Assembly (NCBI GenBank): GCA_005801425.1
Contig: SYDY01000071.1
Span: 1-14,496, forward strand
Reading direction: 5' to 3'
From: Bdellovibrionales bacterium
GTDB taxonomy: Bacteria; Myxococcota; XYA12-FULL-58-9; SYDY01
DNA length: 14,496 nt
The position numbers and the translations under genes were made by a program. The notes below the pieces were generated by a model. It was not told the origin of the DNA. It worked only from the letters and a program-made list of their open reading frames with translations, and ran no database searches. Below are positions 1 through 14,496 of this stretch, one piece after another (positions within the stretch are counted from its first letter, which is position 1; every line of letters starts with the position of its first letter).

Positions 1-568
1 CGGCTTCATCAAGCACCACAACGCTGATTGCGCGCAATGAAAGAGCGCCGTCAGACATCAAGTCGAGCAAGCGTCCGGGTGTTGCCACCAAGATGTCGGC
101 ACCGCGCTCAAGGGCACGAACCTGGCCTGCGCGTGGAACGCCACCAAAGATCACACGTGTGATGAGATCGGTGTATTTTGAGTATGCCGTAAATCGCTCA
201 GCGATTTGCGCGGCAAGTTCGCGTGTAGGTGCCAATACCAAGGCACGGGGATGACGGCTTTTGCCTTTGTTCCCTGCCTGAAGCAAATGGTGCAAAATAG
301 GCAAAGCAAATGCGGCGGTTTTGCCTGTGCCTGTGTCGGCAGTGGCAAGCACATCGCGCCCTTCGAGGGCTGGGCCTATGGCGGCAAGCTGGATCGGCGT
401 TGGGATGGTATACCCAGCTTCATCCAAAGCGCGGCAAAGCACAGGGGCAAGTCCCATGGTGGCAAATACTGAAGTCGTTCCATTGAGTGCCTTTCCGTCG
501 GACGGTGGCAGAGATGGAAGAACGGTCGATCCGTCGGACGGGGTGGTCAATTTCATATCTGATGTCAT
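1..568 (-). CDS. DEAD-box ATP-dependent RNA helicase, N-terminal part (runs off the window edge)
   Basis: ATP-dependent RNA-unwinding enzyme of the DEAD-box family, probably of the RhlE type. Reading leftwards from ATG at 568, 189 residues are open to the edge without a stop. Visible in order: a Ser/Pro-rich leader (1-30), the Q motif with PTPIQ ending at residue 60, Walker A ATADTGTGKT (75-84), motif Ia PTRELA (114-119), the GG motif near 142, TPGR (163-166), and VLDEA at 185-189, which the partial next codon would complete to DEAD. The C-terminal RecA domain lies outside the window, so the exact subfamily (RhlE, SrmB, DbpA) cannot be settled. No strong Shine-Dalgarno is visible. ATG at 568 is the longest ATG start and precedes the whole conserved core. 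The early coding region carries two identical palindromes, listed separately. Confidence 0.93.
   Translation of the reverse strand, partial: MTSDMKLTTPSDGSTVLPSLPPSDGKALNGTTSVFATMGLAPVLCRALDEAGYTIPTPIQLAAIGPALEGRDVLATADTGTGKTAAFALPILHHLLQAGNKGKSRHPRALVLAPTRELAAQIAERFTAYSKYTDLITRVIFGGVPRAGQVRALERGADILVATPGRLLDLMSDGALSLRAISVVVLDEA
495..541. repeat. Two identical 11-base palindromes near the helicase start
   Basis: CCGTCGGACGG, a perfect odd palindrome (CCGTC-G-GACGG), occurs at 495-505 and again at 531-541, exactly 36 bases apart. Both lie within the first 25 codons of the helicase gene and both encode a PSDG-type tetrapeptide. Because each copy is self-complementary, the two could also pair with each other as an 11-bp stem around a 25-base loop in the mRNA. 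It may be an operator, an RNA structure, or just a duplicated low-complexity peptide. Confidence 0.45.
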
Positions 569-671
569 AAAAAATGGCTCTCGGGGAAAATTCAAAGACC
601 ACACAGTATGACGCATCCAGTAATTTACGTCAATGCCTATGTTTCATAAAAATCCAAACCTAGTTCTCAAC

Positions 672-1595
672 CTATCGGCCCACGTGGCGGGCAGTCTCAA
701 TTAAATCTTCCACATGCTGGGGAATATTTCGATCACAGCGCACGATATAACCGTAATCTACCGACGGAAATAGATGGGGAAGAGGTGTCCCCACCAAACT
801 ATCGGTGTCATCTATGATTACATCCGATGAAATACTAATCACAATACCCGCCTCGATATATTTGCGTGTTGTTTCCCAATCCACGAAACGGATCCGCAAA
901 CGGTTTTTAAGCTGATCCCGGGAAAAAAGGTCGTAAAGATTGGGCAGCACACGAAAATTTTCAGCAGGAAACGCGAGATCAAATGAACTGATTTCCTCAA
1001 CAGTGAGATGCGGTTTTCCTGCAAGTGGATGATCTTTCGGTGTGATCAGAGCCGGTGGGTACTGGTAAACCTGGATGTAACGCACAGAGGCGGGAAACGC
1101 CACGTGACCACGTCGGGGGAGCAAAGCAACATCAACCTCATTGCTTAGAATCTTTTCGATAGCCTGCGTGTGCTCCGCATAATGGATCACCACATCGCAG
1201 TCTTTGAATTCCCCGAGATACACTTTGAGCACGCGAGGCAGAATAAACGAAATCCCCGTACTGTTGCTTGCAATACGAAGCTCGAACTCTTTCTGCTCCG
1301 CACGCCGCTTATAGAATGTTTCGTGCAAAGTATTGATGCCTTCTATGTGTTCAATAGCCAGGACATAAAGCAATCGGCCATCGTTGGTGAGCTTGATACG
1401 CGGTCCATGGCGCTCGAAAAGCTGGACCTTGAGATCGTCTTCCAAGCTTTTGATTTGTAAGGAAACAGCGGCATGTGTCACACCCAGGAATTTGGCCGCC
1501 TTGGAGATCGATTCAAACTGGGTTGCATAACAGAATCCACGGAGCTGCTGGAGACGGTTTTGCTTGTAGTAAAAGGTATTGGTGTGATTTTGCAT
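672..1595 (-). CDS. LysR-family transcriptional regulator, CysB-like effector domain
   Basis: DNA-binding transcription factor of the LysR family, 307 residues from the chosen start, a normal length. The winged helix-turn-helix spans about residues 14-75 (LQQLRGF, then SISKAAKFLGVTHAAVSLQI and LFERHG). The rest is a two-lobed effector-binding domain. Segments such as FVDWETTRKYIEAGIVISI resemble the CysB/Cbl branch, whose effectors are sulfur metabolites; that likeness is by eye only. I chose ATG at 1595 because GGA lies 7 bases upstream. ATG at 1610 lacks a ribosome site but is possible. A TTG at 1655 is open but would place coding sequence over the operator and the TATAAT box. It is divergent from the dehydrogenase-oxidase fusion gene at 1717, the usual layout for a LysR regulator and its target. 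Confidence 0.92.
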   Translation of the reverse strand: MQNHTNTFYYKQNRLQQLRGFCYATQFESISKAAKFLGVTHAAVSLQIKSLEDDLKVQLFERHGPRIKLTNDGRLLYVLAIEHIEGINTLHETFYKRRAEQKEFELRIASNSTGISFILPRVLKVYLGEFKDCDVVIHYAEHTQAIEKILSNEVDVALLPRRGHVAFPASVRYIQVYQYPPALITPKDHPLAGKPHLTVEEISSFDLAFPAENFRVLPNLYDLFSRDQLKNRLRIRFVDWETTRKYIEAGIVISISSDVIIDDTDSLVGTPLPHLFPSVDYGYIVRCDRNIPQHVEDLIETARHVGR

Positions 1596-1616
1596 GATTT
1601 TTTCCGTCATGCATCT

Positions 1617-1668
1617 ATCATAAGATGAACTTACGATTATACTTAAAATTATCAAGATATCTTACGAT
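1617..1668. promoter_or_regulatory. Paired LysR-type boxes in the divergent intergenic region
   Basis: Two dyads lie between the divergent genes. The first is ATCATAAG-N5-CTTACGAT at 1617-1637, with an inner TAAG-N5-CTTA matching the LysR T-N11-A consensus at 1621-1633. The second contains the perfect palindrome AAGATATCTT (1654-1663), also inside a T-N11-A frame (1652-1664), and is followed by another CTTACGAT at 1661-1668. The centres are about 31 bases apart, close to three helical turns, so both sites would face the same side of the DNA. This fits the recognition-plus-activation site pair bound by a LysR tetramer. Binding itself is inferred. Confidence 0.6.
1636..1641 (-). promoter_or_regulatory. 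Possible -10 box of the LysR gene
   Basis: On the minus strand these six bases read TATAAT, a perfect sigma-70 -10 hexamer, 26 bases before ATG 1610 and 41 before ATG 1595. No good -35 hexamer is found at the usual spacing. The box abuts the first LysR dyad (1617-1637), so binding there would be expected to repress the regulator's own gene. Confidence 0.35.
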
Positions 1669-1704
1669 CAGATTACCCGATAAGAATTGCGTCATATCAT
1701 CACT

Positions 1705-1708
1705 GGAG
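1705..1708 (+). promoter_or_regulatory. Ribosome binding site fixing the start at 1717
   Basis: GGAG ends 8 bases before ATG 1717. The longer open frame beginning with TTG at 1687 has no comparable site, so 1717 is taken as the start. Confidence 0.7.
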
Positions 1709-1716
1709 TCTTCGTC

Positions 1717-3984
1717 ATGGCCAGTTTTTGGATGTTACGCGAAACAAGAAATGCCTTATGTCGCATGCATGTGTTTACGCGAAGATTTGCCCAAACAGGT
1801 GCTTCCACACTGAGCATCGCACCCCATGGCCCACATCGAGACTCATTCGAAAAATTCGGAGTTCAACACATTACCAACTCCCATGGGCAAAGTAACGGAG
1901 CCGCACTTCTCGAAGCTGTCAGGCTGCACGCCACTGCATCACCCGGCAAACCACTTCAACTCGTGGTCGGCGGACAAAAAATCACACGTTCGCAAGCTGA
2001 AGAGATGGAAAGTTTGGCTTCTGTGACATGGTTTCGCCGTGGCACCGACGCGCGCAATATCGAAACCACACAACCCATACGCAATACGCCCTATGTCAAT
2101 GCGCCCTTTGTCGCCCAAGACATCTGCAAAGAAATATTTCATGATCCGAAAGCGGGTGAAACACTGGCCCTGGTGGGGTTTGGCCCCATCAATCAAGAAG
2201 TCGCGCGCAAGGCCATCGCACTTGGACTCAACGTTGTGGTGTACACGCCCAGGCTTGCCGATGAAACTACGCGTGCAGAGGCCATGCAAGGGACAGAACT
2301 TGAACACAAGATACGCTTTGCTTCCACGATATGTGAGGCATGCAACGGTGCACATTACCTGTCCATTGCATGCAATGAAAATCCATCATCGCATCACCAA
2401 ATAACACCCCAAGCCCTTGATGGACTTAAGCCACAAGCACGCATGACGTGCGTATCACCCTTTGCCGTCTTGGCCCCAGAAACAATTCCATGGCTTGCAG
2501 CACAAACATACAGCAAACGCCTCGCCCATGTGGTTTTGGACAACAATCCAGAACAAGTGGCACTGGTAAAGCAACAATGCGGTGAGCTGCCAAGCACAAT
2601 GCATGTACGAAGCAGCGCCATGGCAGCACCCGAATGCGTGCAAGCACTCAACAACGCTGTCGCCATCACACTCGGACAAAAATATCTCGAAGACATTATC
2701 GTAGGACGCCATCGTTGGCCTCAAAGCCCCAGCAGCAAACAACACACACTCCTCATAGGAGGCGGCTTCAACAATCTTGTGCATGCACTCATGTCCCATC
2801 CACAAGAAGACATCACCATCATCGACCCAGGGGGTAAGAACACATCGAATACATTCGATATGCGACACATCTCGCCCGCAGAAACACTGCCTCACATGAC
2901 AAAAAGTCGTGAGCATGCACTCACCACACCTTTAGTTCTATTCGGTTGGGCCGCCTATGGTGATCGCCAGCTTACCGATGACGAACGTGCTTTTATTCGC
3001 GCATGGCAATGGAATGCACAAAATCCCGCACTCGTCGCACTTTCAACATCGCTGGTACGTGCATGCAACACCGCAAGCATCATAGAATGGAGCACCCTGA
3101 TTGCACAGCATCCCAATTTATTTCGATCATCGGTAGTAGAAAATTCCAGCCTTGTGCGCTGTTATACTTCCGAAAAAGAAATTGAATCGGCACAAAAATC
3201 CCATGCAACTTTTGGAGCATACGTAACACGGCTGGATATGTCCGATCCCAGATTGCATGGATTAAATCCTGAAATCATTGCAGGCGCACTTAATGTGACA
3301 CTTGGTATGGCATTTAAAGCCCAAGTGCTGGAAAGAGATCTTAAACGCCATCTTCAAGAACGTGGTGTACGATTTATCAAAGACAAAGCAACACGATGGG
3401 AACAAAGCATCGAGACAGGACGCGTTCATGTGTCGCTTCAAAGTGGCGAGACAATCTCAGGCGATCGTGCGTTGATCAGTACGGGTGCACAAAGTTCGTT
3501 TGCAAATGCAGTACAAGGCGTCGCAGGATTTTTTGCACAAGCGCATGGAATGCCCAATCGCACCTTCAAACTTCATCCTCCATCAAAGACGAATCTACCC
3601 GTCATGAATTTCATAGCCACACATGAAGGCACACCCTCTGTGAGCTTTGGCGCTGCCTATGTTGGTCAAGGCAAGATCGATCACAATCTTATTCCTACCT
3701 ATGTGCATATGGCGGAATACTTCCTAAGTTCTGTTGCGGGTCAAAAAGTCACATTAAGCGATATCACCCTATGCAGCGAAAATGGGGGACGCCCTTTTAC
3801 AGCAGATGGAATGCCAATCGTTCATCGCGATGGAAACGTTGTGAGTATTTTAGGAACCAATGCCGCCGGCCTTACGCTCGCACCGCTGATGTCACGCATG
3901 GCAATGTCCTATTGGGCTGGCAAAATCAATCCACTGCATTTGGCGCTTTCGCCTCAGCTTCGTGTTTTGAGCAAGGAACCCTAG
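1717..3984 (+). CDS. Fusion of a D-2-hydroxyacid-dehydrogenase-like domain and a DAO-type FAD oxidoreductase
   Basis: A 755-residue two-enzyme fusion, probably cytoplasmic (no signal peptide seen). Residues about 60-320 look like a D-2-hydroxyacid dehydrogenase: RRGTDARNIE near 107-116, then the NAD Rossmann turn VGFGPINQEVA (153-163) ending in NVVVYTP. The catalytic Arg normally found after the penultimate strand (family pattern N-x-S-R-G) appears replaced in CVSPFAVL (245-252), so normal dehydrogenase activity is doubtful. From about 340 a second Rossmann start, LLIGGGFNN (345-353) and TIIDPGG, opens a DAO-family flavoprotein. Its C-terminal signature is clear: GGRPFTADGMPIV (690-702) and GTNAAGLTLAPL (713-724). 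DAO enzymes oxidise amines or amino acids. The substrate is unknown. It heads a three-gene plus-strand cluster and is divergent from the LysR gene. Confidence 0.8.
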   Translation: MASFWMLRETRNALCRMHVFTRRFAQTGASTLSIAPHGPHRDSFEKFGVQHITNSHGQSNGAALLEAVRLHATASPGKPLQLVVGGQKITRSQAEEMESLASVTWFRRGTDARNIETTQPIRNTPYVNAPFVAQDICKEIFHDPKAGETLALVGFGPINQEVARKAIALGLNVVVYTPRLADETTRAEAMQGTELEHKIRFASTICEACNGAHYLSIACNENPSSHHQITPQALDGLKPQARMTCVSPFAVLAPETIPWLAAQTYSKRLAHVVLDNNPEQVALVKQQCGELPSTMHVRSSAMAAPECVQALNNAVAITLGQKYLEDIIVGRHRWPQSPSSKQHTLLIGGGFNNLVHALMSHPQEDITIIDPGGKNTSNTFDMRHISPAETLPHMTKSREHALTTPLVLFGWAAYGDRQLTDDERAFIRAWQWNAQNPALVALSTSLVRACNTASIIEWSTLIAQHPNLFRSSVVENSSLVRCYTSEKEIESAQKSHATFGAYVTRLDMSDPRLHGLNPEIIAGALNVTLGMAFKAQVLERDLKRHLQERGVRFIKDKATRWEQSIETGRVHVSLQSGETISGDRALISTGAQSSFANAVQGVAGFFAQAHGMPNRTFKLHPPSKTNLPVMNFIATHEGTPSVSFGAAYVGQGKIDHNLIPTYVHMAEYFLSSVAGQKVTLSDITLCSENGGRPFTADGMPIVHRDGNVVSILGTNAAGLTLAPLMSRMAMSYWAGKINPLHLALSPQLRVLSKEP

Positions 3985-4005
3985 ACACAAAATAGATAGC
4001 GCCAT

Positions 4006-4770
4006 ATGATTATTCCCATGTCCTTTTTTAATGTGTCTGAAGACTACCTAACGAAACGACCAAAAGACACAAAGTTCGACCCATTTTTGTATGTTCCCGT
4101 GAGCCCTACAGCACCGCGATTCGAGTTAGATCTTGATCCTTTTGCCGATCAATATGTCCCTTCACACAGCAGACCTCAAAGTCCACTCTTTTCTTCGTCA
4201 CACGAATACGATCCATTTTTAAGCTGTCCTTGGATCCCTCCCATATCGCCATCGCCATGGGAACAAATCTCAGATGAACACATGATGCCCCAAGCCCTCG
4301 TCGTACCAGAACACGTTCCAGCTTCCATCGATGTGTTGCAACAAAAACCAGCGTTGTTCCAAGTAAGGGCTGGAACACATGGAGACCGAAACCTATGGAT
4401 CGAAACACGCTTACAAAAGCTCAGTGGGCATGCACTGTGGAGCGATGCCCTCAGCCAAAAGATCCTACGGAATTATGATCCCAACGACATCATCACTTTG
4501 GATGGTGGTATTGTTCTGTCCATTCATATCGAAGCACAGAAAATAGCACAGAATATTAACCCAGAGGATATTACATATTTTACGCTCCGGAAGAAAATAT
4601 CATCTGCAGTACAAGTGTGGCGAAAAGGCGAGGATTCTTGGATTACGCGACAATCACCCCGAGACAATACACCAGAGCCACCCTCCTCCCATGATGGTCA
4701 CAAAAACGCTGTGAGCGCTTTGCTCGTCTTAAATCTGACCGAATGTTATTTGCGTGCATTAAACGCATAG
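4006..4770 (+). CDS. Uncharacterised protein with three DPF-containing proline-rich repeats
   Basis: I do not recognise this 254-residue protein. Its N-terminal third is rich in Pro, Ser and aromatic residues and looks disordered. It holds three similar segments, each with a DPF tripeptide (residues 25-27, 44-46 and 69-71) followed by a VP or IP and SP-type spacer, for example FDPFLYVPVSP and YDPFLSCPWIPPISP. The C-terminal part (about 115-220) is more ordinary and may fold (for example GGIVLSIHIEAQKIAQNI). No signal peptide, membrane segment or catalytic motif is evident. It sits 21 bases after the fusion enzyme and 40 before the channel gene, so co-transcription is likely. No convincing ribosome site precedes 4006; ATG 4018 is an alternative start. 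Codon use does not stand out by eye. Confidence 0.7.
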   Translation: MIIPMSFFNVSEDYLTKRPKDTKFDPFLYVPVSPTAPRFELDLDPFADQYVPSHSRPQSPLFSSSHEYDPFLSCPWIPPISPSPWEQISDEHMMPQALVVPEHVPASIDVLQQKPALFQVRAGTHGDRNLWIETRLQKLSGHALWSDALSQKILRNYDPNDIITLDGGIVLSIHIEAQKIAQNINPEDITYFTLRKKISSAVQVWRKGEDSWITRQSPRDNTPEPPSSHDGHKNAVSALLVLNLTECYLRALNA

Positions 4771-4810
4771 ACGCTTTTCGCTGGCACATTTTTTAGACCC
4801 TGCATATCCC

Positions 4811-7609
4811 ATGCGCATCATGGCGAGCATCAGAATTCCCGACAGCCTCTTTTTTGCCGCGTTGATGGCGCTGCCATCTATTGCGATGGCACGCCCAACC
4901 CAGCTCGAGGACAAAGCACCCTATCACATTGCCGTCGTTGCACCTCTTTCGGGACCAAGTGCTGAAACAGGACGCAATATGGTGTCGGGTGCCAAATTGA
5001 TTGCAAAGCAAATCAATGCAGAAGGCGGTATCGATGGCCATCGTATCAATTTGACCATCCACGATGACGCCGGATCCCCAGGCAATGCACGTGCAGTGGC
5101 GGAAGAAATAGTAAGAAACAATCAGAGCATTGCTGTTCTGGGTCACTGGTACAGCGTTTCATCCATTGCCGCAGGCCCCATATATCGGGATGCGCACATC
5201 GCAGCTGTATCACCAGGATCCATGAGCCCTACGGTCACCGAAAACAATCCATGGATGTTCACCACAATCCATGATCTTAAAATATCGGGTAATGTACTCA
5301 CCTATTATCTTCAATCTATTTTAGGGCTGACCCATATTGCCATCGCGCATGAGGCAAGCACTTACGGACAACAACTTGCCGATGTCATGACAAAAACAGG
5401 CCATGATATTGGCATTCAGACATTGCACATCACAACCAATCCGAATTCAGCACGTGAAACAGCACAACGAATTTTGCAAACACTCTCAACACAAAAAGAA
5501 TTCGCGACCCTGATGATCGCAACAACAGCAACCGAAGGTGCGCATCTCGTTCGTGCATTGCGCGATGAAGGCTTTACAGGAACGATTGTGGGCTCTGCGA
5601 CATTTTCCGAAGATGAATTTCTTAACGCACTTTCGGGCACATCAACCCCCGCACGCAATGCCGCCTATTACAGCCACGGGATCTACGCCATTGCACCTTT
5701 GCTCATGGCCACCGCAGGCCCAAAAGCCCATGCATTTTCACATAACTATCGCGACGAATATGGGCTTGAACCAGGATGGCCCGCTGCCTACGCTGCCGAT
5801 ACACTCAATGTGATTGTTGAAGCGATACGACGATCCAATCTCAACACCCAAACCTTACAAGAACAACGCACCGCCATCCATAAAGCACTCGCAGGTATGA
5901 ACAGTGCCAGCGCCGGTTACGATGGGATCACCGGTGTCACCTATTTTACAGCCACGGGTAGCGCCGCAAAACCGCCTGTCATAGGGCGCTATCGTGACAG
6001 CATTCTCGTACCAGCCCCCGTACAACTCACACCCGTCAATCGTGCCTACGCCATCACAGACACCCCCAGCGCTGGCACGCTTGTTGTGGACAATTTACTT
6101 CTTAGACGAACCGAAGTTGTTTTTAGTGGCATCGAGATGATCAGAATCGACAACATCAAACCTTGGGAACTTACATTTGATGCCGAATTTTTCTTGTGGT
6201 TTCGTTATGATCCCACAACATCGGCGACGGATATCGAATTTACCAATGCTGTGGGCAATGTCGTTCTTGGCGATCCCATTCGTGCGTACAATACCCATGG
6301 ATTGGAATACAGATTGTATCGCGTGCGCGGTTCATTTCGCGCAAAGTCACTCGCCTATCACAATGTCCTTGGCATCGCAGATCTGCCCATTCGATTTCGT
6401 CATCGAAGCAAAGATCACAGCGAGCTCATTTATGCCGTCGATCAAGACACGTCGTCGCATGCCAAGGATGACATCCTAAGCCCCGCCAGTCGTTGGGTGG
6501 TCAACACCATCACATCCTATCAAGACATCGAGCCAGGAAGTGGGCTGGGTGCCCCTAGCATCGACGGCACAGGATCCGCGGGTACGTCTGTTTTTGCCCA
6601 CAATATTTCCGTAAAAGCTGCATCGATCACCTTGGGGAGTATACTTCCAGGCAATATACCTCAACGTATTTTACCTATCGCACTTTTTCTTTGGGCCATC
6701 GCAATGTTCGCACGACGCCCCAAGCGTCTCGGCACAGCGCCTGTATGGTCCTTGATTCTATTGGTGGCCTCTGCACTCGTAAGCCTTGCAACAGCCGAAG
6801 TGGCATTCATACGAACATTAGCACACAGCACAGAATGGACATCACAATTGGGCCATGGCTTTGAAATTTTGTGGTGGCTGGTACCCACGCTTCTTTTGCA
6901 CGCCATACTCAACACCTTGGTATGGGACGTGGCCGAGCGACGCACGGGACATGCCGTACCCACCACCATGCGCATGATCATGCTCGCACTTCTTTTAACA
7001 TTTGCTGCATTTGGTATTCTTGCTTTTGTATTCAATCAAAAGGTAACCAGCTTGCTTGCAACATCCGGCGTGGTTGCCATGGTCGTAGGCCTTGCTGTGC
7101 AGGTCAATATTTCAAATATCGTGTCAGGATTGGTTCTTAATTTGGAAAAACCTTTTAAAATTGGCGACTGGGTGCAGGTGGGCGACGCGATTGGACGCGT
7201 GGTGGATATCAACTGGCGTGCAACACGCCTTCATACGCTCATGGACAATGTCGTCTCCATTCCCAATGCCAAAGTGGCCGACATGACGGTCATCAATTAC
7301 CACTATCCAACTTATTCATCATGGTATGGTTTTAATGTTTTTGTAGATCACCACCATGATCCTTCTACGGTCAAAAAGATCCTCGAAGAAGCCATTCTTG
7401 CGGTGCCCACCGTCAGTGAACCGTGGGTTGTTTTGGCGAGTCTTAACGAATGGTCGGCGGATTACGGTGTCTATTATCGAAGCACCGACTACGCACGCAA
7501 AGTCGATATCCAACATCAAGTGTGGACATCCATATGGGAACATCTCAGCAAAGCTGGGATTAAGCCCGCTGTGCGCAAACAACAGGTGCAGGTGTCTCAA
7601 GTTACTTAA
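4811..7609 (+). CDS. Predicted ligand-gated MscS channel: periplasmic-binding, pLGIC-like and MscS modules fused
   Basis: A 932-residue envelope protein built from four parts. (1) A signal peptide, with likely cleavage after AIAMA at residue 27. (2) A type I periplasmic-binding domain of the branched-chain amino acid family, about 37-400 (HIAVVAPLSGPSAETGRNM, GGIDGHRI, AVSPGSMSP, WPAAYAADTL). (3) A beta-rich segment, about 425-610, resembling the extracellular domain of prokaryotic pentameric ligand-gated channels: GIEMIRIDNIK, FDAEFFLWFRYD, DIEFTNA, YRVRGSF, and a Pro-loop-like YHNVLGIADLPIRFRHR (516-532). (4) About four hydrophobic segments (615-634, 645-668, 682-705, 720-742), then the MscS pore helix and beta domain (746-835: GLAVQVNISNIVSG, PFKIGDWVQVGDAIGRVVDI, SIPNAKVAD). 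Expected in the inner membrane with sensor domains in the periplasm, probably letting solute binding gate the pore. ATG 4820 is an alternative start; neither has a strong ribosome site. Confidence 0.85.
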   Translation: MRIMASIRIPDSLFFAALMALPSIAMARPTQLEDKAPYHIAVVAPLSGPSAETGRNMVSGAKLIAKQINAEGGIDGHRINLTIHDDAGSPGNARAVAEEIVRNNQSIAVLGHWYSVSSIAAGPIYRDAHIAAVSPGSMSPTVTENNPWMFTTIHDLKISGNVLTYYLQSILGLTHIAIAHEASTYGQQLADVMTKTGHDIGIQTLHITTNPNSARETAQRILQTLSTQKEFATLMIATTATEGAHLVRALRDEGFTGTIVGSATFSEDEFLNALSGTSTPARNAAYYSHGIYAIAPLLMATAGPKAHAFSHNYRDEYGLEPGWPAAYAADTLNVIVEAIRRSNLNTQTLQEQRTAIHKALAGMNSASAGYDGITGVTYFTATGSAAKPPVIGRYRDSILVPAPVQLTPVNRAYAITDTPSAGTLVVDNLLLRRTEVVFSGIEMIRIDNIKPWELTFDAEFFLWFRYDPTTSATDIEFTNAVGNVVLGDPIRAYNTHGLEYRLYRVRGSFRAKSLAYHNVLGIADLPIRFRHRSKDHSELIYAVDQDTSSHAKDDILSPASRWVVNTITSYQDIEPGSGLGAPSIDGTGSAGTSVFAHNISVKAASITLGSILPGNIPQRILPIALFLWAIAMFARRPKRLGTAPVWSLILLVASALVSLATAEVAFIRTLAHSTEWTSQLGHGFEILWWLVPTLLLHAILNTLVWDVAERRTGHAVPTTMRMIMLALLLTFAAFGILAFVFNQKVTSLLATSGVVAMVVGLAVQVNISNIVSGLVLNLEKPFKIGDWVQVGDAIGRVVDINWRATRLHTLMDNVVSIPNAKVADMTVINYHYPTYSSWYGFNVFVDHHHDPSTVKKILEEAILAVPTVSEPWVVLASLNEWSADYGVYYRSTDYARKVDIQHQVWTSIWEHLSKAGIKPAVRKQQVQVSQVT

Positions 7610-8009
7610 GCGTCACAGGTTGCCCCACGGCGCTTGCATAAAACACAATGATCTTTACAGGCGTTGTGCCAATGTTGCGTCCGTTGTGCAGCATACCAGA
7701 AACTTCGACCATTGCTTCACCCGCATTGACGCGTTTGGTTCGTCCATCAGGCAAATAAATTTCAAGTTCACCCGCAAGTGAATAGCCAAAAACAGGCACA
7801 GGGTGTTGATGCCAACCGGTTTCTGCACCCGGTGCGATTTCGATCAATTGCCCTACAATTTGGGCATTCCCTTGGGGATAAACCACCGGCGTGCCACCCC
7901 AGCTCTCCGATGCAGACAATATATCTTGGACCTTTATACCACTCCCAATCGTGCCACGTGGCGCACAAGAACAGAACAGACACATGACAAGACATTTCCA
8001 TATTTGCAT
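7602..8009 (-). CDS. Small exported cupin-fold protein
   Basis: A single-domain cupin of 135 residues. The first cupin motif shows HxH at 67 and 69 followed by a Gly-Glu turn (SLAGELEIY); the second shows GEAMVEVSGMLHN with His108. Together these could bind a metal. The N-terminus (KCLVMCLFCSCAP) is hydrophobic and Cys-rich, suggesting a signal peptide or a non-canonical lipobox, so the protein is probably periplasmic or membrane-anchored. I chose ATG 8009 because AGAGGT lies just upstream; ATGs at 8027 and 8042 are open but add no conserved sequence. Its end overlaps the channel gene by 8 bases in a convergent arrangement with no terminator between them. The substrate cannot be predicted: cupins include sensors, dioxygenases and isomerases. 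Confidence 0.82.
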   Translation of the reverse strand: MQIWKCLVMCLFCSCAPRGTIGSGIKVQDILSASESWGGTPVVYPQGNAQIVGQLIEIAPGAETGWHQHPVPVFGYSLAGELEIYLPDGRTKRVNAGEAMVEVSGMLHNGRNIGTTPVKIIVFYASAVGQPVTLK

Positions 8010-8030
8010 CGCACCTCTATACTGCATCCC

Positions 8031-8435
8031 ATGGACTCTCAACCAGGTTTACAACTTCACCACATTGCCTTGCGTGCATCAGATCCCCAGCAAGTCGCGT
8101 CGTTTTATCATACCATCCTGGAACTTCCCGAATTGCGACGAGGTCATGATGCCCAAGGACTTTATTCTATTTGGCTTGGGATAGGCGGGCATGCCATTCT
8201 CATGATCGAACGAGGAGATCAAAAACCAACACGCAATGATGGATGGGAATTTGTTGCATTCGGTATCAAGGGCAGTGAATCTGAATACTGGCGAGATCGT
8301 CTCACGCAACACCTTGTCACCATTGAAGGCGAAACGGATCACACATTGTATTTTCGAGATCCAGAAGGCAATCGTGTTGGGCTTTCGGCATACCCAGATG
8401 TTTTAAACGCTGGGCTCCCGCTTTCGCGAGGATGA
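8031..8435 (+). CDS. VOC (glyoxalase/bleomycin-resistance fold) family protein
   Basis: A 134-residue protein with the paired beta-alpha-beta-beta-beta layout of the vicinal-oxygen-chelate superfamily: LHHIALRASDPQQVASFYHTIL at the start and LYFRDPEGNRVGLSAYP near the end. His11 and His104 could be metal ligands. The Glu that usually follows GNR in the last strand is Gly118, so the metal site may be incomplete or the protein a non-catalytic binder. The start ATG is 21 bases from the divergent cupin start, leaving little room for promoters. The longer frame upstream is antisense to the cupin gene and was discarded. The last codons (AGLPLSRG) lie inside a palindromic repeat, so the C-terminus has probably been rewritten by its insertion. 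Possible roles include dioxygenase, isomerase or antibiotic binding. Confidence 0.82.
   Translation: MDSQPGLQLHHIALRASDPQQVASFYHTILELPELRRGHDAQGLYSIWLGIGGHAILMIERGDQKPTRNDGWEFVAFGIKGSESEYWRDRLTQHLVTIEGETDHTLYFRDPEGNRVGLSAYPDVLNAGLPLSRG
8411..8435. repeat. Palindromic repeat forming the 3' end of the VOC gene
   Basis: The stretch around CTCCCGCTTTCGCGAG (8415-8430) is an imperfect palindrome. It resembles the widespread TCCCGCTTTCGCGGGAATGA type of dispersed bacterial repeat, which I recall from many genomes. It supplies the last codons and stop of the VOC gene. The family assignment is from memory and needs a genome search. Confidence 0.5.
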
Positions 8436-8446
8436 GGTTTTCGGAA

Positions 8447-8470
8447 GGGCGGTTCACGAACCGCCCCTAC
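8447..8470. repeat. Perfect hairpin repeat, copy 1 of a dispersed palindrome
   Basis: GGGCGGTT (8447-8454) and AACCGCCC (8459-8466) form a perfect 8-bp stem with a CACG loop, extendable by one C-G pair. Read on the minus strand, 8470-8455 gives GTAGGGGCGGTTCGTG, which is repeated exactly at 14358-14373. It lies between the convergent VOC and msrA genes. There is no T-run on either side, so it is better described as a dispersed palindromic element than as an intrinsic terminator. Confidence 0.65.
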
Positions 8471-8474
8471 GAGA

Positions 8475-8508
8475 AGACAATAGTTCAGACAATAGTTCAG
8501 ACAATAAT
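8475..8508. repeat. 12-base tandem repeat, 2.8 copies
   Basis: AGACAATAGTTC is repeated perfectly at 8475-8486 and 8487-8498, with a partial third copy (AGACAATAAT) at 8499-8508 that touches the msrA stop codon. It is downstream of both flanking convergent genes and may vary in copy number between strains. Confidence 0.8.
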
Positions 8509-9008
8509 CAATCCCGCACCCAGTGACATGTGTATCCATCAGGGTGTCGCTTTAAATAATCCTGATGTTCTTTTTCTGCCGAATGCCATTTGCCTGCGGG
8601 CAATACTTGCGTCACAACGGCCTTCGGCCATTTCTTTGAAGCATTCACCTCGGCAATGACACGTACAGCGCTCTTATGCTGCGATTCATCCACGAAAAAA
8701 ATAGCCGAACGATACTGGCTCCCAACGTCGTTGCCCTGACGATTGGGCGTCGTTGGATCATGGATACGAAAAAAATAGTGCAAGATTTTATCGTAAGACG
8801 TTTTTGACGGATCAAAAACAACACGCACCGCTTCCGCGTGACCTGTATTTCCCGATTTCACCTGGCTATAGGTGGCAGGTGCCTCGGCAGTGCCACCGAT
8901 ATACCCCACGTCCGTATCAGTAACCCCGGGGAAATCGCGCAACAAATCTTCCATTCCCCAAAAACATCCACCCGCCAAAAATGCGACAGCATGCGTAATT
9001 GCAACCAT
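8508..9008 (-). CDS. msrA: Peptide methionine sulfoxide reductase A
   Basis: Reduces the S-epimer of methionine sulfoxide in proteins and free methionine, an oxidative-damage repair step driven by thioredoxin. At 166 residues it is the usual short cytoplasmic form without a signal peptide. The catalytic GGCFWG motif has Cys15, and the family landmarks [33 protein letters not shown] and QYRSAIFF are all present. The C-terminus YTCHWVRD offers Cys161 as a resolving cysteine. The start ATG has no strong ribosome site but directly precedes the conserved core. Seven bases separate it from the upstream GDPD-like remnant on the same strand, so the two may share a transcript. No MsrB gene is in the window. 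Confidence 0.96.
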
Positions 9009-9015
9009 ACATGCA

Positions 9016-9444
9016 TTATCTCATGCTTTTATGATCATTCCAATGCCCAGGAAATTTCGTACACACCGCATCCACGGGGTGCTTTTTACACCATTGTGCC
9101 ATCGCTTCAATTTCAGAAGGATCACGTCCTTCAAGCTCCGGAGAGACTAAGCACAACTTGAAGTGCTGTTTTAAAATGGCATAATCCATGTCCTTTAATT
9201 CAAATGAATCAAAACCATCAAGCCATACCCACGCCGCATGCCCTGCGAACTTCATGACACTTTCCATGGGCTCAAGTTCACTCAATCGTACTGCAAAATC
9301 CTTGCAACCACGTTTCACAAGCTGACGCATCACAGGCACACTGCTGTCCAAAAAAAAGAATCGAATATCGGGTCTATGCGAAGCCAAAAGGTCTAAAATG
9401 ATATTTTCAATATGAGACGATTTATCGTATGGATTGAACCCCAT
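9016..9444 (-). CDS. GDPD/PI-PLC-like protein, probably an N-terminally truncated remnant
   Basis: 142 residues resembling the C-terminal half of a glycerophosphodiester-phosphodiesterase/PI-PLC-like barrel protein that I associate with surface-glycan loci. Visible segments: [10 protein letters not shown] (11-20), [11 protein letters not shown] (29-39), AVRLSELEP (51-59), VWLDGF (73-78), [12 protein letters not shown] (97-108), [11 protein letters not shown] (125-135). The N-terminal half of such barrels, where the HDP-type and Glu/Asp metal ligands normally sit, is absent. The first nine or so residues (MGFNPYDKS) do not look like the family and are antisense to the nucleotidyltransferase gene. 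No ribosome site precedes 9444. It is probably non-functional or a partial domain. The family call is from pattern recognition and is moderate in certainty. Confidence 0.6.
9412..9444. other. Head-to-head junction of two N-terminally truncated genes
   Basis: Family-like sequence of the minus-strand GDPD-like frame and of the plus-strand nucleotidyltransferase frame both begin within a few codons of about 9415. Each frame lacks the start of its domain, and the two frames overlap by 33 bases. The plus frame has a stop (TAA at 9394-9396) six codons before its first ATG, so no hidden N-terminus continues upstream in frame. Confidence 0.5.
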
Positions 9445-10776
9445 AAAGAAGGGCCCGGCAAAGCACTCGAAACCGCGCTTCCCATGCTAGATCCTCATAC
9501 GCCTATACTGGTCAGCTATTGCGATTACGGCATGATGTTTGATGCACACGCCTTTGAACACATGACCTCATCCACAGGCTGCGATGCCGCTGTGTTGGGT
9601 TATTCGGGTTACCATCCGCAGTACCGCCGTGCGATATCCTTTGCCCGGTGCCGCATCGAAAAAGGTCGTATTCGGGAAATTCGAGAAAAGGGACAAATTA
9701 CCCTTGATCCAATGAACGAATTTACATCGAGTGGGTGTTATTATTTTCGCGATATCGAAATACTGCGTCGCGCGTTGCATGTGCAACGCCAACGCAATCT
9801 CCTCTTGAAAGGTGAATTGTACACAAGCCTCACCGTTGAAGCCTTGTTGCAGGACAATCCCACTGCCTGTGTAATGCCATTTACAATCGATTCTTTTGAC
9901 CAATGGGGAACCCCCGAAGATGTGGCCGATTTTCGTTTTGCACAGCAAAGCTTTCACGCCATCGGAGAACCCCATGGACTCTCCGATGCTTCGGTCGATC
10001 AGATATTGATGCCTATGGCAGGTCTTGGAGCTCGTTTTAAACCAGAATACGAAGTGCCCAAACCACTCATCCCAGTGGCAAATCAACCTATGTTTCTTCG
10101 GGCGCTGCATAGCTTACCCAAAGCATCGCGAACTGTTTTTGTGGTGCTTGCGTCGGTTCACGAAGCCATCAAACCCGTCGCAAAAAAAGTCAATGCAACA
10201 TGCCATATTTTGCCAGAAACGCCGCCTGAACAGGCCTTTAGCGCCGCATCGGCACTTGAACATCTCAATCCCAATCAAGATATTTTAATTTCCGCGTGCG
10301 ATCACGAAGTGGCAGTCAACAAACGTCAATGGGATCGTCTTCGTGCAGATCCCCACATTGATGGTGCAGTATTTACTATCCAAGGATTTCCAGGTGCACG
10401 GTCCAATCCAACGTCGTATTCCTATGCCGTTTTCTCGGGTGATGATGCCTTTCTCGAAATCTCCCGTGTTTCAGTGAAATCGCCCACAACACCGCATCCA
10501 GAACGCGAACATCTCGCGGTGGGAACATTTTGGTTTCGACGCGCGGCATTATTTAAAAAAGGGATCCAAGAGGTGATCGATCACGGAACACGCCACAACG
10601 GCGAGCTGTATTTGGATAACATCGTTGAACCCCTTGTACGTGATGGGGCTCGCATCGTGACCTTCCCTCTCAAGGGCTATCTTTGCATGGGAACTCCCGA
10701 AGAGCTTGCTGCCTATCAGTATTGGTACAAACGTTTTCAAGAACCTTCCACACACATCCATGCAGCGTGTGCTTAA
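9412..10776 (+). CDS. Tandem sugar-phosphate nucleotidyltransferase, first domain truncated
   Basis: 454 residues containing two NTP-transferase domains, enzymes that join a sugar phosphate to an NTP to give an NDP-sugar. Residues 1-180 are the back part of a first domain: GPGKALETALPML, VSYCDYG (34-40), REKGQI, GELY (134-137), WGTPED (165-170). Its nucleotide-binding N-terminus is missing. The second domain (197-440) is complete: MPMAGLGARF (200-209), PKPLIPV (216-222), SACDHEV (294-300), NGELYLDN (396-403), MGTPEEL (426-432). The CD/CDH residues would be the metal-binding aspartate site. Its stop overlaps the ribosome site of the next gene. No ribosome site precedes 9412; translation might start at ATG 9487 or later. 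The substrate is not predictable, and the intact second domain may still be active. Confidence 0.8.
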   Translation: MRRFIVWIEPHKEGPGKALETALPMLDPHTPILVSYCDYGMMFDAHAFEHMTSSTGCDAAVLGYSGYHPQYRRAISFARCRIEKGRIREIREKGQITLDPMNEFTSSGCYYFRDIEILRRALHVQRQRNLLLKGELYTSLTVEALLQDNPTACVMPFTIDSFDQWGTPEDVADFRFAQQSFHAIGEPHGLSDASVDQILMPMAGLGARFKPEYEVPKPLIPVANQPMFLRALHSLPKASRTVFVVLASVHEAIKPVAKKVNATCHILPETPPEQAFSAASALEHLNPNQDILISACDHEVAVNKRQWDRLRADPHIDGAVFTIQGFPGARSNPTSYSYAVFSGDDAFLEISRVSVKSPTTPHPEREHLAVGTFWFRRAALFKKGIQEVIDHGTRHNGELYLDNIVEPLVRDGARIVTFPLKGYLCMGTPEELAAYQYWYKRFQEPSTHIHAACA

Positions 10777-10780
10777 GGAA
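10775..10780 (+). promoter_or_regulatory. Ribosome binding site of the glycosyltransferase gene
   Basis: AAGGAA lies 6 bases before ATG 10787 and overlaps the upstream stop codon (10774-10776). This fixes the start against the longer upstream frame and suggests translational coupling. Confidence 0.7.
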
Positions 10781-10786
10781 AACATC

Positions 10787-11503
10787 ATGCGGTTTTCACT
10801 GGTGATCCCATGCTATAACGAATCAAAATCGATTCCTGCATTGATTGAACGATGCAAAATATTAATCGATCATGGCCATTTTGAAGTTGTTTTGGTGGAC
10901 AATGGATCCAGCGACAATACTCATGACATCATCCAGACTGAAAATCCATGCGGTGATGCACTTCGATGCGTTCGACTTACGCCCAATCGTGGCTATGGCG
11001 GTGGCATTTTAGCGGGTCTTGAAGCCTGCCGGGGTGATGTCATCGGATGGAGCCATGCAGATCTTCAAACCGATCCCGTGGATGCCATCAGTGCTGCCGC
11101 TTTATTTTTGCGCTCACAAAACCCTGAAAATCTATTTGTGAAAGGGACGCGTTATGGAAGACCTCTCGTCGATCGTTTTTTTACCGCAGGCATGGGTGTT
11201 TTAGAAACCATGCTCATAGGTCATGCCATGCATGACATCAATGCACAGCCCACACTTTTTCATCGCAATTTTTTTCGGGCATGGAGCCAACCGCCTTCTG
11301 ATTTTTCTTTAGATCTCTATGCATATGCGATGGCCAAACATCATGGTCTGTCCGTTGCACGATTTCCTGTATTGTTTGCCCCAAGACAGCATGGCCACTC
11401 GCACTGGAACCGGAGCATGGGCGATCGACTCAAATTCATCAAACGAACACTCACATACAGCTTTGGTATGCCACGCCGCCTGCGAGGAAATACGTGCGGT
11501 TAA
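10787..11503 (+). CDS. Family 2 glycosyltransferase, dolichol-phosphate-mannose-synthase type
   Basis: A 238-residue GT-A glycosyltransferase with VIPCYNES (6-13), the nucleotide-binding strand VVLVDNGSSDNT (34-45), NRGYGGGILAGLEACRGDVIG (67-87) and the acidic metal site ADLQTDP (91-97). The order matches polyprenyl-phosphate sugar synthases, which move a sugar from an NDP-sugar to a lipid carrier. The residue before ADLQ is His where many relatives have Asp. No membrane segments follow the catalytic domain, unlike GtrB or ArnC, so it should be cytoplasmic or peripheral. It would supply a lipid-linked sugar to the GT-C-like membrane protein encoded next, with which it overlaps by 10 bases. 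Lipid carrier and sugar are not deducible. Confidence 0.88.
   Translation: MRFSLVIPCYNESKSIPALIERCKILIDHGHFEVVLVDNGSSDNTHDIIQTENPCGDALRCVRLTPNRGYGGGILAGLEACRGDVIGWSHADLQTDPVDAISAAALFLRSQNPENLFVKGTRYGRPLVDRFFTAGMGVLETMLIGHAMHDINAQPTLFHRNFFRAWSQPPSDFSLDLYAYAMAKHHGLSVARFPVLFAPRQHGHSHWNRSMGDRLKFIKRTLTYSFGMPRRLRGNTCG
11485..11490 (+). promoter_or_regulatory. Ribosome binding site supporting a GTG start
   Basis: AGGAAA lies 3 bases before GTG 11494, with its AGGA core 5 bases away. The internal ATG at 11521 has no such site, so the GTG start, overlapping the previous gene by 10 bases, is preferred. Confidence 0.6.
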
Positions 11504-13554
11504 ACATTCATAAGAATCCTATGGGTATCGCGTTGTGTGTTCGCTTATGCAGTATTTTTTTATTCATACCCACACTTCACCAGAAATTGTTTATTCCTTT
11601 TCTTGCCCATATTTCATGGAATACGTGGTACGATCCATGGACAACATTTATTGCAAATGGTGGATCACCCGGATCATTCCCTTACGGCGTGGTTTTGCTA
11701 CTCGCACTTTGTCCCGCAGTATTGATTCAGCATGCGGGCGAAGCACTTGGAATAGCATCACTCGGTGCCATAGGCCTCGGCCTCACATTGCTTGTGTGGG
11801 AACTTCTGCTTGTTAAGACCCTCCAGCGTCTTCCGAATGGTGCACAAATCGCAACAAGTTACTGGAAAAACCCCATCCCATGGGCTGTCACCTATTGGCA
11901 TGGACAACTGGAAGTGATCCCACTTGCCATCATCTTCTTTTCACTAGGGCAACTTACCCAATATCCACGTCGAAGTGGTCTGTGGATGGGTTTGGCTATG
12001 GCTGCAAAAATACATGCGGGGCTGGCTACTGTGTTTACCGGGATCCATATATGGCGATCATTTTCGTATCGCGACGTGCGACGACCATTTTTAATCGCAT
12101 TGGGCATAGCCACAACAACAGGACTTGGGATCACATTTTTATCGCCCGGGGCACGTGCCATGATGTTTGAAAGCAGCGTATTGCAAAGCATCTGGCAAAT
12201 TCACATTGATGGACGCTCCAATGTGGAGATTTACGTATTTCCACTCGTCATGGGACTTCTCGTCCACAACGTTATCACGCGACGGTGGATCGACACACAC
12301 AGCCTTTGGTATAGCATTTCTATCGCTTATGGATTTCTTGCACTTATCTCGCCGATGTCATTTGGATGGACCTTGTGGTTTATCGTCCCCACGCTTGTGG
12401 CCTTATCCCATATCCATTCAACACGACATGTCGTGCAAACATCGGCGAGCATGGCAATTTTGGTAGGCATCATTTACGGAAGTGATATGCCTTCCATGCG
12501 TTTTACCACGTTATCCTGGCATCCTTCATTAAATAGCACGACTGGTCATATTCCCAGCCTAAATGCTATTTTCACCACCGTTCTTGCTGGTGGGATCATC
12601 ATGTTGATTCTGCGTTTATGGCAAGCCTGGAGAAACGAAACCAACACACAGCTTGTAGAAAAACGCGGTGTTTTCGTGGGTATCGCAGGCGATTCATCCA
12701 CAGGGAAAGATACACTGGTAGGCTCTATCCAAAATTTTTATGGCAAACACGATGTTTTGCATCTCGCATGCGATGGATACCACCGATGGGATCGCGGTGC
12801 ACCCATGTGGGATCATCTGACCCATCTGGATCCAAGAGCCAATCGACTTCATGCGATGTCACGTGATCTCGAAGCGTTAAGTCACGGCTGCGATGTCAAT
12901 ACCACAGAATATGATCATGCGACAGGTCCCTTGCTTCGTGCGCCAGCCTTTAAGCAACGTGATATTCTTTTGGTCAACGGATTGCATACCTTACGATCGC
13001 ATGCGTCACGAAGACTTTTTGATTTGTCTATTTTTCTTGAAATGGAAAACGATCTTCGACGAGACATGAAGATACGTCGTGATTGCCATGAACGTGGTCA
13101 TCAACCCGAAAGTGTGTTGCGATCTTTCGAGCGCCGTTTTGGCGACGGGAAGCGTTTTGTAGAGCCCCAACGGGATCATGCCGATCTTATTTTTTCACTG
13201 CGTTCGCTTCTTCCTGAATTAAAGTCATCACGCAACCTTCCCTTGCAACGTTTGGGATTATGCGCAACAACACATCTTGCACTTCCCTTTGAACGTTTGG
13301 CCGATCTTATCGTCGCATGGACCCACGCCGCCGCGCGCGTGTTTGAAAATGATGATGCCTCGCTGTCTATTGAAATAGAAGGCGATATCAGCGCCATCCA
13401 CACAAGCGCCATGGCACAGCAATTGAGCCATGAACCACTCTTTTCAGTCAGACCCGATTGGGACAATGCCGCGTGGCAAAGCGGAACCCTAGGGCTCATG
13501 CAAATGATCGTATTTCTTGCCATCAATCACGTTGCAAAACGGGGGGGAACTTGA
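11494..13554 (+). CDS. Fusion of a GT-C-like polytopic membrane protein and a PRK/uridine-kinase-type P-loop kinase
   Basis: 686 residues in two very different halves. Residues 1-375 are strongly hydrophobic with roughly nine to eleven membrane segments. NPIPWAVTYWHGQLEVIP (126-143) resembles the loop of GT-C glycosyltransferases (mannosyltransferase/GT-87 or PIG-M like), which use lipid-linked sugars outside the membrane. Residues 390-570 are a P-loop kinase: Walker A GIAGDSSTGKDT (396-407), substrate-site CDGYHRWDR (426-434), THLDPRANRL (443-452), EYDHATG (472-478), then an Arg-rich lid (RRDMKIRRDCHERG, 522-535). This pattern is phosphoribulokinase/uridine kinase type; the true substrate is unknown. 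About 115 C-terminal residues are unassigned. The stop overlaps the next start by one base. The cytoplasmic kinase could supply substrate to the same pathway. Confidence 0.82.
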   Translation: MRLNIHKNPMGIALCVRLCSIFLFIPTLHQKLFIPFLAHISWNTWYDPWTTFIANGGSPGSFPYGVVLLLALCPAVLIQHAGEALGIASLGAIGLGLTLLVWELLLVKTLQRLPNGAQIATSYWKNPIPWAVTYWHGQLEVIPLAIIFFSLGQLTQYPRRSGLWMGLAMAAKIHAGLATVFTGIHIWRSFSYRDVRRPFLIALGIATTTGLGITFLSPGARAMMFESSVLQSIWQIHIDGRSNVEIYVFPLVMGLLVHNVITRRWIDTHSLWYSISIAYGFLALISPMSFGWTLWFIVPTLVALSHIHSTRHVVQTSASMAILVGIIYGSDMPSMRFTTLSWHPSLNSTTGHIPSLNAIFTTVLAGGIIMLILRLWQAWRNETNTQLVEKRGVFVGIAGDSSTGKDTLVGSIQNFYGKHDVLHLACDGYHRWDRGAPMWDHLTHLDPRANRLHAMSRDLEALSHGCDVNTTEYDHATGPLLRAPAFKQRDILLVNGLHTLRSHASRRLFDLSIFLEMENDLRRDMKIRRDCHERGHQPESVLRSFERRFGDGKRFVEPQRDHADLIFSLRSLLPELKSSRNLPLQRLGLCATTHLALPFERLADLIVAWTHAAARVFENDDASLSIEIEGDISAIHTSAMAQQLSHEPLFSVRPDWDNAAWQSGTLGLMQMIVFLAINHVAKRGGT

Positions 13555-14309
13555 TGCAACTGTTCAATCACGCAGCCGTAGATTTACTTCCAGATGCCAT
13601 TTTATTTGATTTTGATGGAACGCTGTACCCTTACGAGCATGCTCATCAAGCGGCATTAAATTCTGTATCGCGATTTGCAGAACGCCGCATCGGTGTTGCA
13701 TCGGATTCTTTTTCCCATGCATACGCAGAAGCACGAAAACATGTTCAAAAGATACTCCACACATCGCCGAGTAAATACAATCGCCTTTTGTATTTTCAAT
13801 CGGCCTTTGAACAATTGGGTCTTGGGTCACAAGTGAATATCATGATGGAATTTGAGCGTTTATACTGGCAACGCTTCATGGAAAACATGCAAGTGGACGA
13901 TGAAGTGTATGATTTTTTCGACGAATTGCGGCGCATTGGGATCCCCGCGGCCATTGTGACCAATCAAGTGGCCGATGTGCAAATGCGAAAACTTACGTTT
14001 TGGGAATTGCACGACTACTTTCGCTGTGTGATCACCTCCGAAGAAGTGGGTCACAACAAACCCCATCCCGCTATTTTTAATCGGGCTGTAGAAAAGCTCG
14101 GTTGTCAGGGAAAACACGTATGGATGGTCGGCGATTGTCCTGAAACCGATCTGGCGGGTGCAAAACAGGCTCTAGGCGCAACCACGGTCTTGCGCTCCTA
14201 TGAAAAATCAATCCCAAATGCATTTGAGGTAGATCTCCGCATTGATCGATTAAGCGATCTATTGCCGTTTATCACAAGTAAGCACGTGAAAAAGACCAGT
14301 GCGGCGTGA
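13554..14309 (+). CDS. HAD-superfamily phosphatase (subfamily IA type)
   Basis: A 251-residue haloacid-dehalogenase hydrolase. Motif I is DFDGTLY with nucleophile Asp19 and acid/base Asp21, motif II VTNQ has Thr136, motif III is Lys169 in GHNKPHP, and motif IV is MVGDCPETD (191-199). A helical cap sits between motifs I and II (about 25-115), as in subfamily IA. It probably removes phosphate from a sugar phosphate or nucleotide. The start ATG shares a base with the upstream stop (TGATG) and follows a G-rich ribosome site, so it is translationally coupled to the kinase fusion. It is the last gene of the operon. With the kinase and nucleotidyltransferase it could form a bisphosphate-to-NDP-sugar route like the GDP-heptose pathway (inference). 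Confidence 0.92.
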   Translation: MQLFNHAAVDLLPDAILFDFDGTLYPYEHAHQAALNSVSRFAERRIGVASDSFSHAYAEARKHVQKILHTSPSKYNRLLYFQSAFEQLGLGSQVNIMMEFERLYWQRFMENMQVDDEVYDFFDELRRIGIPAAIVTNQVADVQMRKLTFWELHDYFRCVITSEEVGHNKPHPAIFNRAVEKLGCQGKHVWMVGDCPETDLAGAKQALGATTVLRSYEKSIPNAFEVDLRIDRLSDLLPFITSKHVKKTSAA

Positions 14310-14357
14310 TTCTGGGTTCTCGCCTTCCTAAGAAACTTGAATTTCAGGTGTTCTATT

Positions 14358-14385
14358 GTAGGGGCGGTTCGTGTGTACGTTCGCC
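14358..14385. repeat. Dispersed palindrome, degraded copy 2
   Basis: GTAGGGGCGGTTCGTG at 14358-14373 matches the minus-strand reading of 8455-8470 exactly over 16 bases. Here the second arm has diverged (TACGTTCGCC), leaving only an imperfect dyad: GGCG at 14363-14366 with CGCC at 14382-14385, and CGT/ACG inside. It follows the HAD gene. Confidence 0.55.
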
Positions 14386-14386
14386 A

Positions 14387-14436
14387 ACATAGGTAACACT
14401 TTTTGTTCGCTACATTGGTGACAAAATTAGTTAACA
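14387..14436. repeat. Two degenerate 25-base direct repeats
   Basis: The units at 14387-14411 and 14412-14436 share the pattern ACAT-n-GGT-n-ACA followed six bases later by GTT. The first contains AGGTAACACTTTTTGTT and the second TGGTGACAAAATTAGTT. Tandem units like this occur at transposase-binding ends of some insertion sequences, but no transposase is seen before the window ends. No gene is visible in 14310-14496. Confidence 0.35.
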
Positions 14437-14496
14437 ATTTCGCAACGTCTCGCGTCAATAGCACCAATTCTTAAGGCCCTAAAGTATATACTCCAC

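Follow-up and report, generated by a model that had tools for sequence, protein, structure and literature searches.

Can the ligand-sensing half of a pentameric ligand-gated ion channel (pLGIC) be carried by a pore of another fold? In the AChR superfamily the known partner of the extracellular domain (ECD) is a four-helix pentameric pore of its own, and the coupling of the two, through the Pro-loop and an arginine before the first membrane helix (M1), is a central question of gating. This question is raised by a gene in a stretch of 14,496 nucleotides from a Bdellovibrionales bacterium (contig SYDY01000071.1, positions 1 to 14,496, here called the window), for which an earlier note, made from the letters alone, had proposed a triple fusion of a periplasmic-binding protein (PBP) domain, a pLGIC-like segment and an MscS channel.

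Domain content of a single reading frame

The gene is one open frame of 932 amino acids from an ATG at 4811, with an alternative in-frame ATG at 4820. Counted from the preceding stop, the frame is free of stops for 948 codons, for which the chance at the window's composition is about 1e-20, and GC3 is similar across all three parts of the gene (0.44-0.50). The order in the protein is signal peptide, PBP domain, pLGIC-ECD-like domain, five transmembrane (TM) helices, and the pore, beta and C-terminal domains of MscS (Table 1). The hydrophobic segment at the N-terminus, ending in AMA followed by RP, fits a cleavable signal peptide as proposed, and all three domain calls of the triple fusion hold. 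The earlier note had itself raised the objection that two genes might have been joined by an error of assembly. No tool result was in favour of such an error, or of one of annotation, and it is refuted by the recurrence of the same order in 14 non-redundant genes from independent assemblies in several phyla, completed Azospirillum plasmids included, which leaves it a practically negligible chance.

Table 1. Features of the fusion gene, with positions in the window and the basis of each assignment.
Feature	Position	Strand	Basis
Whole fusion gene, 932 aa	4811..7609	+	open frame
Signal peptide, residues 1-27 (...SIAMA/RP)	4811..4891	+	sequence; hydropathy peak 9-27
Type I PBP domain, residues 38-389	4922..5977	+	PF13458; 3ip5; Foldseek LIVBP-type chains
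pLGIC-ECD-like beta domain, residues ~431-606	6101..6628	+	profile, hhalign, Foldseek
Degenerate Pro-loop, N-V-L-G (518-521) at Y-P-x-D positions	6362..6373	+	alignment
A603 at pLGIC pre-M1 arginine position	6617..6619	+	alignment
TM helix 1, residues 616-634	6656..6712	+	hydropathy; model
TM helix 2, residues 644-671	6740..6823	+	hydropathy; model
TM helix 3 with LWW motif, residues 683-712	6857..6946	+	hydropathy; model
TM helix 4, residues 718-740	6962..7030	+	hydropathy; model
Pore helix, equivalent of MscS TM3, residues 745-779	7043..7147	+	phmmer alignment to 2vv5
MscS beta domain, residues 767-831	7109..7303	+	PF00924
MscS C-terminal alpha/beta domain, residues 842-918	7334..7564	+	PF21082; model

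The PBP domain has the whole two-lobe type I fold of the HAAT (branched-chain amino-acid) type, as had been claimed. It matched PF13458 over model positions 2-333 of 343 (Pfam, E 2.8e-39), its best sequence match in the PDB was the Atu2422 amino-acid receptor (3ip5, E 9.9e-23), and in a Foldseek search with the full-length model the leucine/LIV-type binding proteins and MscS were the two main groups of matches. PBP domains of the HAAT type bind amino acids and similar metabolites. Even with this receptor as the closest PDB sequence, the ligand is not readable from the sequence because the SPGATNP motif of the Leu-binding protein reads SPGSMSP here.

At the other end of the protein, the full MscS pore and beta domain described earlier were found, with Pfam matches to PF00924 (E 6.5e-21) and PF21082 (E 1.2e-4) and a phmmer match of the pore helix and MscS domains to PDB entry 2vv5 (E 1.3e-15), in which TM3 is included in the alignment. 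M757 and L761 align there with L105 and L109 of E. coli MscS, the residues of its hydrophobic gate. Homology thus extends over the pore helix and upper vestibule (~90 residues) by which the MscS superfamily is defined (PMC4560390), and the fusion protein is a member of this superfamily. The pore helix, beta domain and C-terminal domain are homologous to those of E. coli MscS, YnaI, MscK and MscM, none of which is known to have a PBP or a pLGIC-type head. Other periplasmic extensions are carried by MscK and MscM. The ECD is followed by five TM helices both in the hydropathy profile and in the full-length model (mean pLDDT 64). If the head is periplasmic, this odd number places the C-terminus inside, as is needed by the cyclic-nucleotide-binding (cNMP) domain that six of the relatives carry.

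The middle domain and the loss of the coupling motifs

Residues ~400-615 had no match in Pfam or in a direct sequence search of the PDB, as would be the case if the middle domain were a generic beta-sandwich spacer resembling pLGICs by convergence; the Neur_chan_LBD model of Pfam is, for its part, too narrow even for true bacterial pLGICs. A profile made from two fusion middle domains and run over the genomes of the phylum of an Opitutae MAG that holds one of the fusions matched a 714-aa PBP protein (P0006, E 3.7e-16) and a PBP-less protein (E 1.3e-4), both of which run on, by sequence, into a pLGIC-type four-helix domain. P0006 matches structures of ELIC, a GLIC chimera and the glycine receptor over both the ECD and the TMD, and weakly the Neur_chan_memb model of Pfam. 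Many more pLGICs were found by the same profile in cyanobacteria and elsewhere, among them a protein (L117) whose match to GLIC, at about 1e-13, spans almost the full length (ECD and TMD). When the fusion ECDs and the ECDs of PBP-less pLGICs were aligned apart and compared by hhalign, the result was 99.2% (E 2.1e-19), and shuffled and reversed controls stayed at or below 0.6%. A profile of the fusion ECDs alone found no pLGIC in the PDB by sequence, so the link to pLGICs needs the intermediate sequences.

The AlphaFold model of the window's middle domain, made from the window sequence and one homologue, was poor (mean pLDDT 40); all 50 PDB matches listed by Foldseek for this weak model were AChBP or nicotinic-type ligand-binding domains (best E 5e-4), with AChBP on top, which may be taken as agreement and not as proof. 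Convergence is strongly disfavoured by the profile match to a PBP-pLGIC, the hhalign result and the structural match, and also by the presence of the same PBP-ECD order in true pLGICs, with which the fusions share a common alignment and tree; we regard it as very improbable. By the comparison of sequences the middle domain is homologous to the pLGIC ECD, that is, to the ligand-binding domain of the superfamily, with profile, hhalign and Foldseek in accord. The claim that residues 425-610 bear pLGIC-ECD features was therefore upheld, with FLWFRYD, DIEFTNA and YHNVLGIADLPIRFRHR lying where they had been placed, and the refuting outcome named at the time, no profile match to pLGICs or a different fold, was not encountered. 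The domain boundaries are best drawn as in Table 1.

No residue of the superfamily is more conserved than the proline of the Pro-loop, and Y/FPxD is the best marker of the superfamily (Jaiteh et al., PMC4795631); a charge contact of the loop's acidic residue with a basic residue just before the membrane is indicated by Tasneem et al. (PMC549065). Both motifs were counted in an alignment of 59 ECDs. With two sequences that are truncated or misaligned at the loop (L157 and L165) set aside, a complete Y/FPxD was present in 43/43 pLGIC-type sequences covering the motif (L139 reads VPRD) and in 0/14 fusions, and an arginine before M1 in about 40/41 pLGIC-type sequences and 0/14 fusions; these sequences are related and hence not independent events, and the split follows the type of pore exactly. 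In the window protein N-V-L-G stands at the Y-P-x-D positions and an alanine at that of the arginine. The segment YHNVLGIADLPIRFRHR, earlier called Pro-loop-like, is thus the right loop at the right position, but its Y/FPxD motif is degenerate. A proline at the Pro-loop column is kept in four fusions (L110, L136, L137 and L159); a smaller alignment had suggested that the loop was lost, proline and all, from every fusion, and this was rejected on the larger one.

The ECD of the window protein is followed by an MscS domain in place of the four-helix M1-M4 domain, and Neur_chan_memb was not found in the protein by Pfam. Given that the Y/FPxD motif (PMC4795631) and the four-helix domain were both looked for and are both absent, the fusion protein falls outside the Pro-loop receptors. 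With the arginine missing too, neither the pLGIC pore nor its coupling contacts are left in the fusions. Loop and arginine border on the four-helix pore in pLGICs, and the loss of loop motif and arginine is the outcome expected if both serve that pore.

Distribution and origin of the fusions

A search for other proteins of this architecture, suggested in the earlier note, took in plasmids and a total of 1,802 genomes, for most of which the query was the middle domain. There are 13 further non-redundant PBP-ECD-MscS proteins, from Alphaproteobacteria, Gammaproteobacteria, a cyanobacterium and an Opitutae MAG, making 14 with the window protein. The Opitutae protein (P0002, 1124 aa) has the whole domain order at 31-33% identity and runs on into a C-terminal cNMP domain. 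The middle domain alone, used in tblastn against plasmids, matched nine Azospirillum records, and the three that were examined encode PBP-middle-MscS proteins of 1022-1070 aa on large, completed plasmids; one Azospirillum fusion is annotated only as 'ABC transporter substrate-binding protein'. The genome searches added alphaproteobacterial (L134, L135, L136 and L137) and gammaproteobacterial proteins (L148, L149, L150, L158 and L159) and one from a Spirulina genome (L112). Within its own phylum a fusion was found in the window's genome only, among 195 genomes, and the frequency was 4 in 385 sampled Alphaproteobacteria and 3 in 229 Gammaproteobacteria. No relative was found among the viral contigs scanned, and in the Planctomycetota sample the relatives were of the pLGIC type only, without a fusion. 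The PBP-ECD-MscS fusions are a rare but real family.

Among the known systems nearest to the fusions, prokaryotic ART-LGICs with an N-terminal PBP-I domain (PBP-pLGICs) have been described (Tasneem et al. 2004, PMC549065), in agreement with the earlier statement that such channels are known. They share with the fusions the PBP-then-ECD order of the sensor and homologous sequence, and differ in having the four-helix pLGIC pore with Y/FPxD and the pre-M1 arginine where the fusions have an MscS pore. The bCNG channels, cited in PMC4560390, are members of the MscS superfamily with a C-terminal cNMP domain. Six fusions (L001, L137, L149, L150, L158 and L159) keep such a domain; unlike bCNG channels, the fusions add a periplasmic PBP and a pLGIC ECD, and the window member is without the cNMP domain (PF00027 not found by Pfam).

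In a tree of the pore half, made with the nine fusions then known, a single group of fusions (94/62) lay within a strongly supported clade (100/97) made up mainly of MscS proteins that bear cNMP domains, which is the nesting of the MscS core that a bCNG relationship entails. In a tree of the PBP+ECD half, the 14 fusions formed one group (97/98.5) against 8 PBP-pLGICs, with the long-branched and compositionally odd L107 left out; in a smaller set that kept L107, a single fusion clade only narrowly escaped rejection (p-AU 0.052), which left the matter undecided there. The simplest reading of the two trees would be that the PBP-ECD sensor was grafted a single time onto a bCNG-type MscS and that the fusion then spread across phyla, with the cNMP domain probably lost later in some lines, that of the window included; the rooting of the trees is not fixed, and the direction of the graft is what we infer from them.

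Several features of individual relatives were also observed. The proteobacterial fusions without a cNMP domain (L109, L110, L134-L136 and L148) have an insert of ~50-70 residues in the ECD, after beta7 and before the loop-C region, which neither the window protein nor pLGICs share. One gammaproteobacterial genome (G1343) carries two fusions (L149 and L159) plus a PBP-pLGIC (L161), and so the same kind of sensor on two pores. Two tandem genes on a cyanobacterial contig (G705:C91; L113 at 1-3381, minus strand, and L132) encode PBP-pLGIC proteins in which the pLGIC four-helix domain is followed by another solute-binding domain at the C-terminus (SBP_bac_1, 4e-32). A pLGIC in the Planctomycetota sample (L168 in G1623, 928-3027, minus strand) has an N-terminal NMT1/TAXI-type domain (PF16868, 7.6e-47) and not a type I PBP, and L164, L169 and L170 likewise have long N-terminal parts. 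In the window's phylum, an MscS protein with a cNMP domain (L093 in G049, 970-4080, minus strand, a frame of 1288 codons) has ~600 N-terminal residues that were not recognized by Pfam.

Possible gating, neighbouring genes and significance

By the way it would work, the protein is a candidate for a ligand-gated channel whose sensor derives from a pLGIC. We consider it fairly probable, judging from its domains, that it is a channel in which an MscS-type pore carries the prokaryotic PBP-pLGIC sensor module on the periplasmic side, with ligand gating as the probable outcome. Closed by a small periplasmic solute, the PBP would transmit its movement by way of the ECD and the additional TM helices to the MscS gate. 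The gate would then have another open probability or another tension threshold, and the cell would let ions or small solutes through as the solute in the periplasm arrives or is removed. A cytoplasmic signal, too, would probably be read by the six relatives that carry a C-terminal cNMP domain. The broader proposition, that the ligand-sensing half of a pLGIC has been moved onto an unrelated, heptameric-type MscS pore to give a class of channels gated by an outside ligand, some of its members also by an inside nucleotide, appears to us evenly balanced. The works-like parallel is with the ionotropic glutamate receptors, in which PBP folds control a pore of other origin, a parallel already drawn for the PBP-pLGICs (PMC549065); unlike in the fusion, no pLGIC ECD is present in those receptors, and their pore is not homologous.

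Alternatively, the pore could be gated by membrane tension as in MscS, although opening under tension is not universal in the superfamily. The head of such a tension valve, passive or regulatory, would only tune threshold or inactivation or anchor the channel to periplasmic or surface structures. The MscS core and its hydrophobic gate positions are kept, and the giant cadherin and laminin-G neighbours in several Alphaproteobacteria are compatible with a head that binds or monitors surface material. However, the window lacks that surface-gene neighbourhood, and the PBP, a solute-binding fold of full length, is part of a sensor common to PBP-pLGICs of the ligand-gated type. Ligand-binding cNMP domains occur, moreover, in MscS relatives from the same clade, so that we think a tension valve unlikely. 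An ordinary MscS frame of 308 codons is also present in the window's genome, and the osmotic role therefore need not fall on the fusion protein. As to the alphaproteobacterial loci themselves, the fusions at L109, L141 and L142 adjoin giant genes of cadherin, Big_9 and laminin-G repeats, and the Azospirillum loci also contain type I secretion genes (an ABC exporter and an HlyD adaptor).

A regulated solute exporter, in which the channel would release a metabolite and the PBP would read the same metabolite outside as feedback, was weighed as well. Pores of the MscS family are wide and organic solutes can pass through them, and amino acids and similar metabolites are what a HAAT-type PBP would read. 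The neighbours in the window (a LysR regulator, a 2-hydroxyacid-dehydrogenase/DAO fusion, a cupin, a glyoxalase and MsrA) suggest no pathway, and no set of biosynthesis or catabolism genes in the window points to one solute, which makes an exporter quite improbable.

No description of a PBP-ECD-MscS protein was found in searches of the open full-text literature, in line with the earlier remark that replacement of the four-helix pore by that of MscS is little described. With the pore replaced, exactly the coupling contacts have been dropped, and the family is a natural experiment on the purpose of these contacts. The symmetry question, too, becomes concrete in it, with a five-fold-type sensor on a seven-fold-type pore: MscS is heptameric, and the solved MscS-family entries of the PDB list seven chains, and pLGIC ECDs are pentameric. 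If the proposed ligand-gated channel is real, pLGIC sensing would be transferable as a module, able to drive a pore that differs in fold and possibly in symmetry; ligand gating would further offer a template for engineering ligand-gated pores of large conductance and a plausible role for MscS paralogues without a tension response.

Three further genes of the window were noted, all on the plus strand. A 254-aa frame (4006-4770), in which Pfam found no match, ends 40 bases upstream of the fusion gene and is possibly co-transcribed with it. In the 765-aa protein encoded at 1687-3984 the NAD-binding domain of a D-2-hydroxyacid dehydrogenase is fused with a DAO-type FAD oxidoreductase, and the 686-aa protein at 11494-13554 combines a hydrophobic, multi-pass N-terminal half with a C-terminal phosphoribulokinase/uridine kinase domain (PF00485, 1.7e-27).
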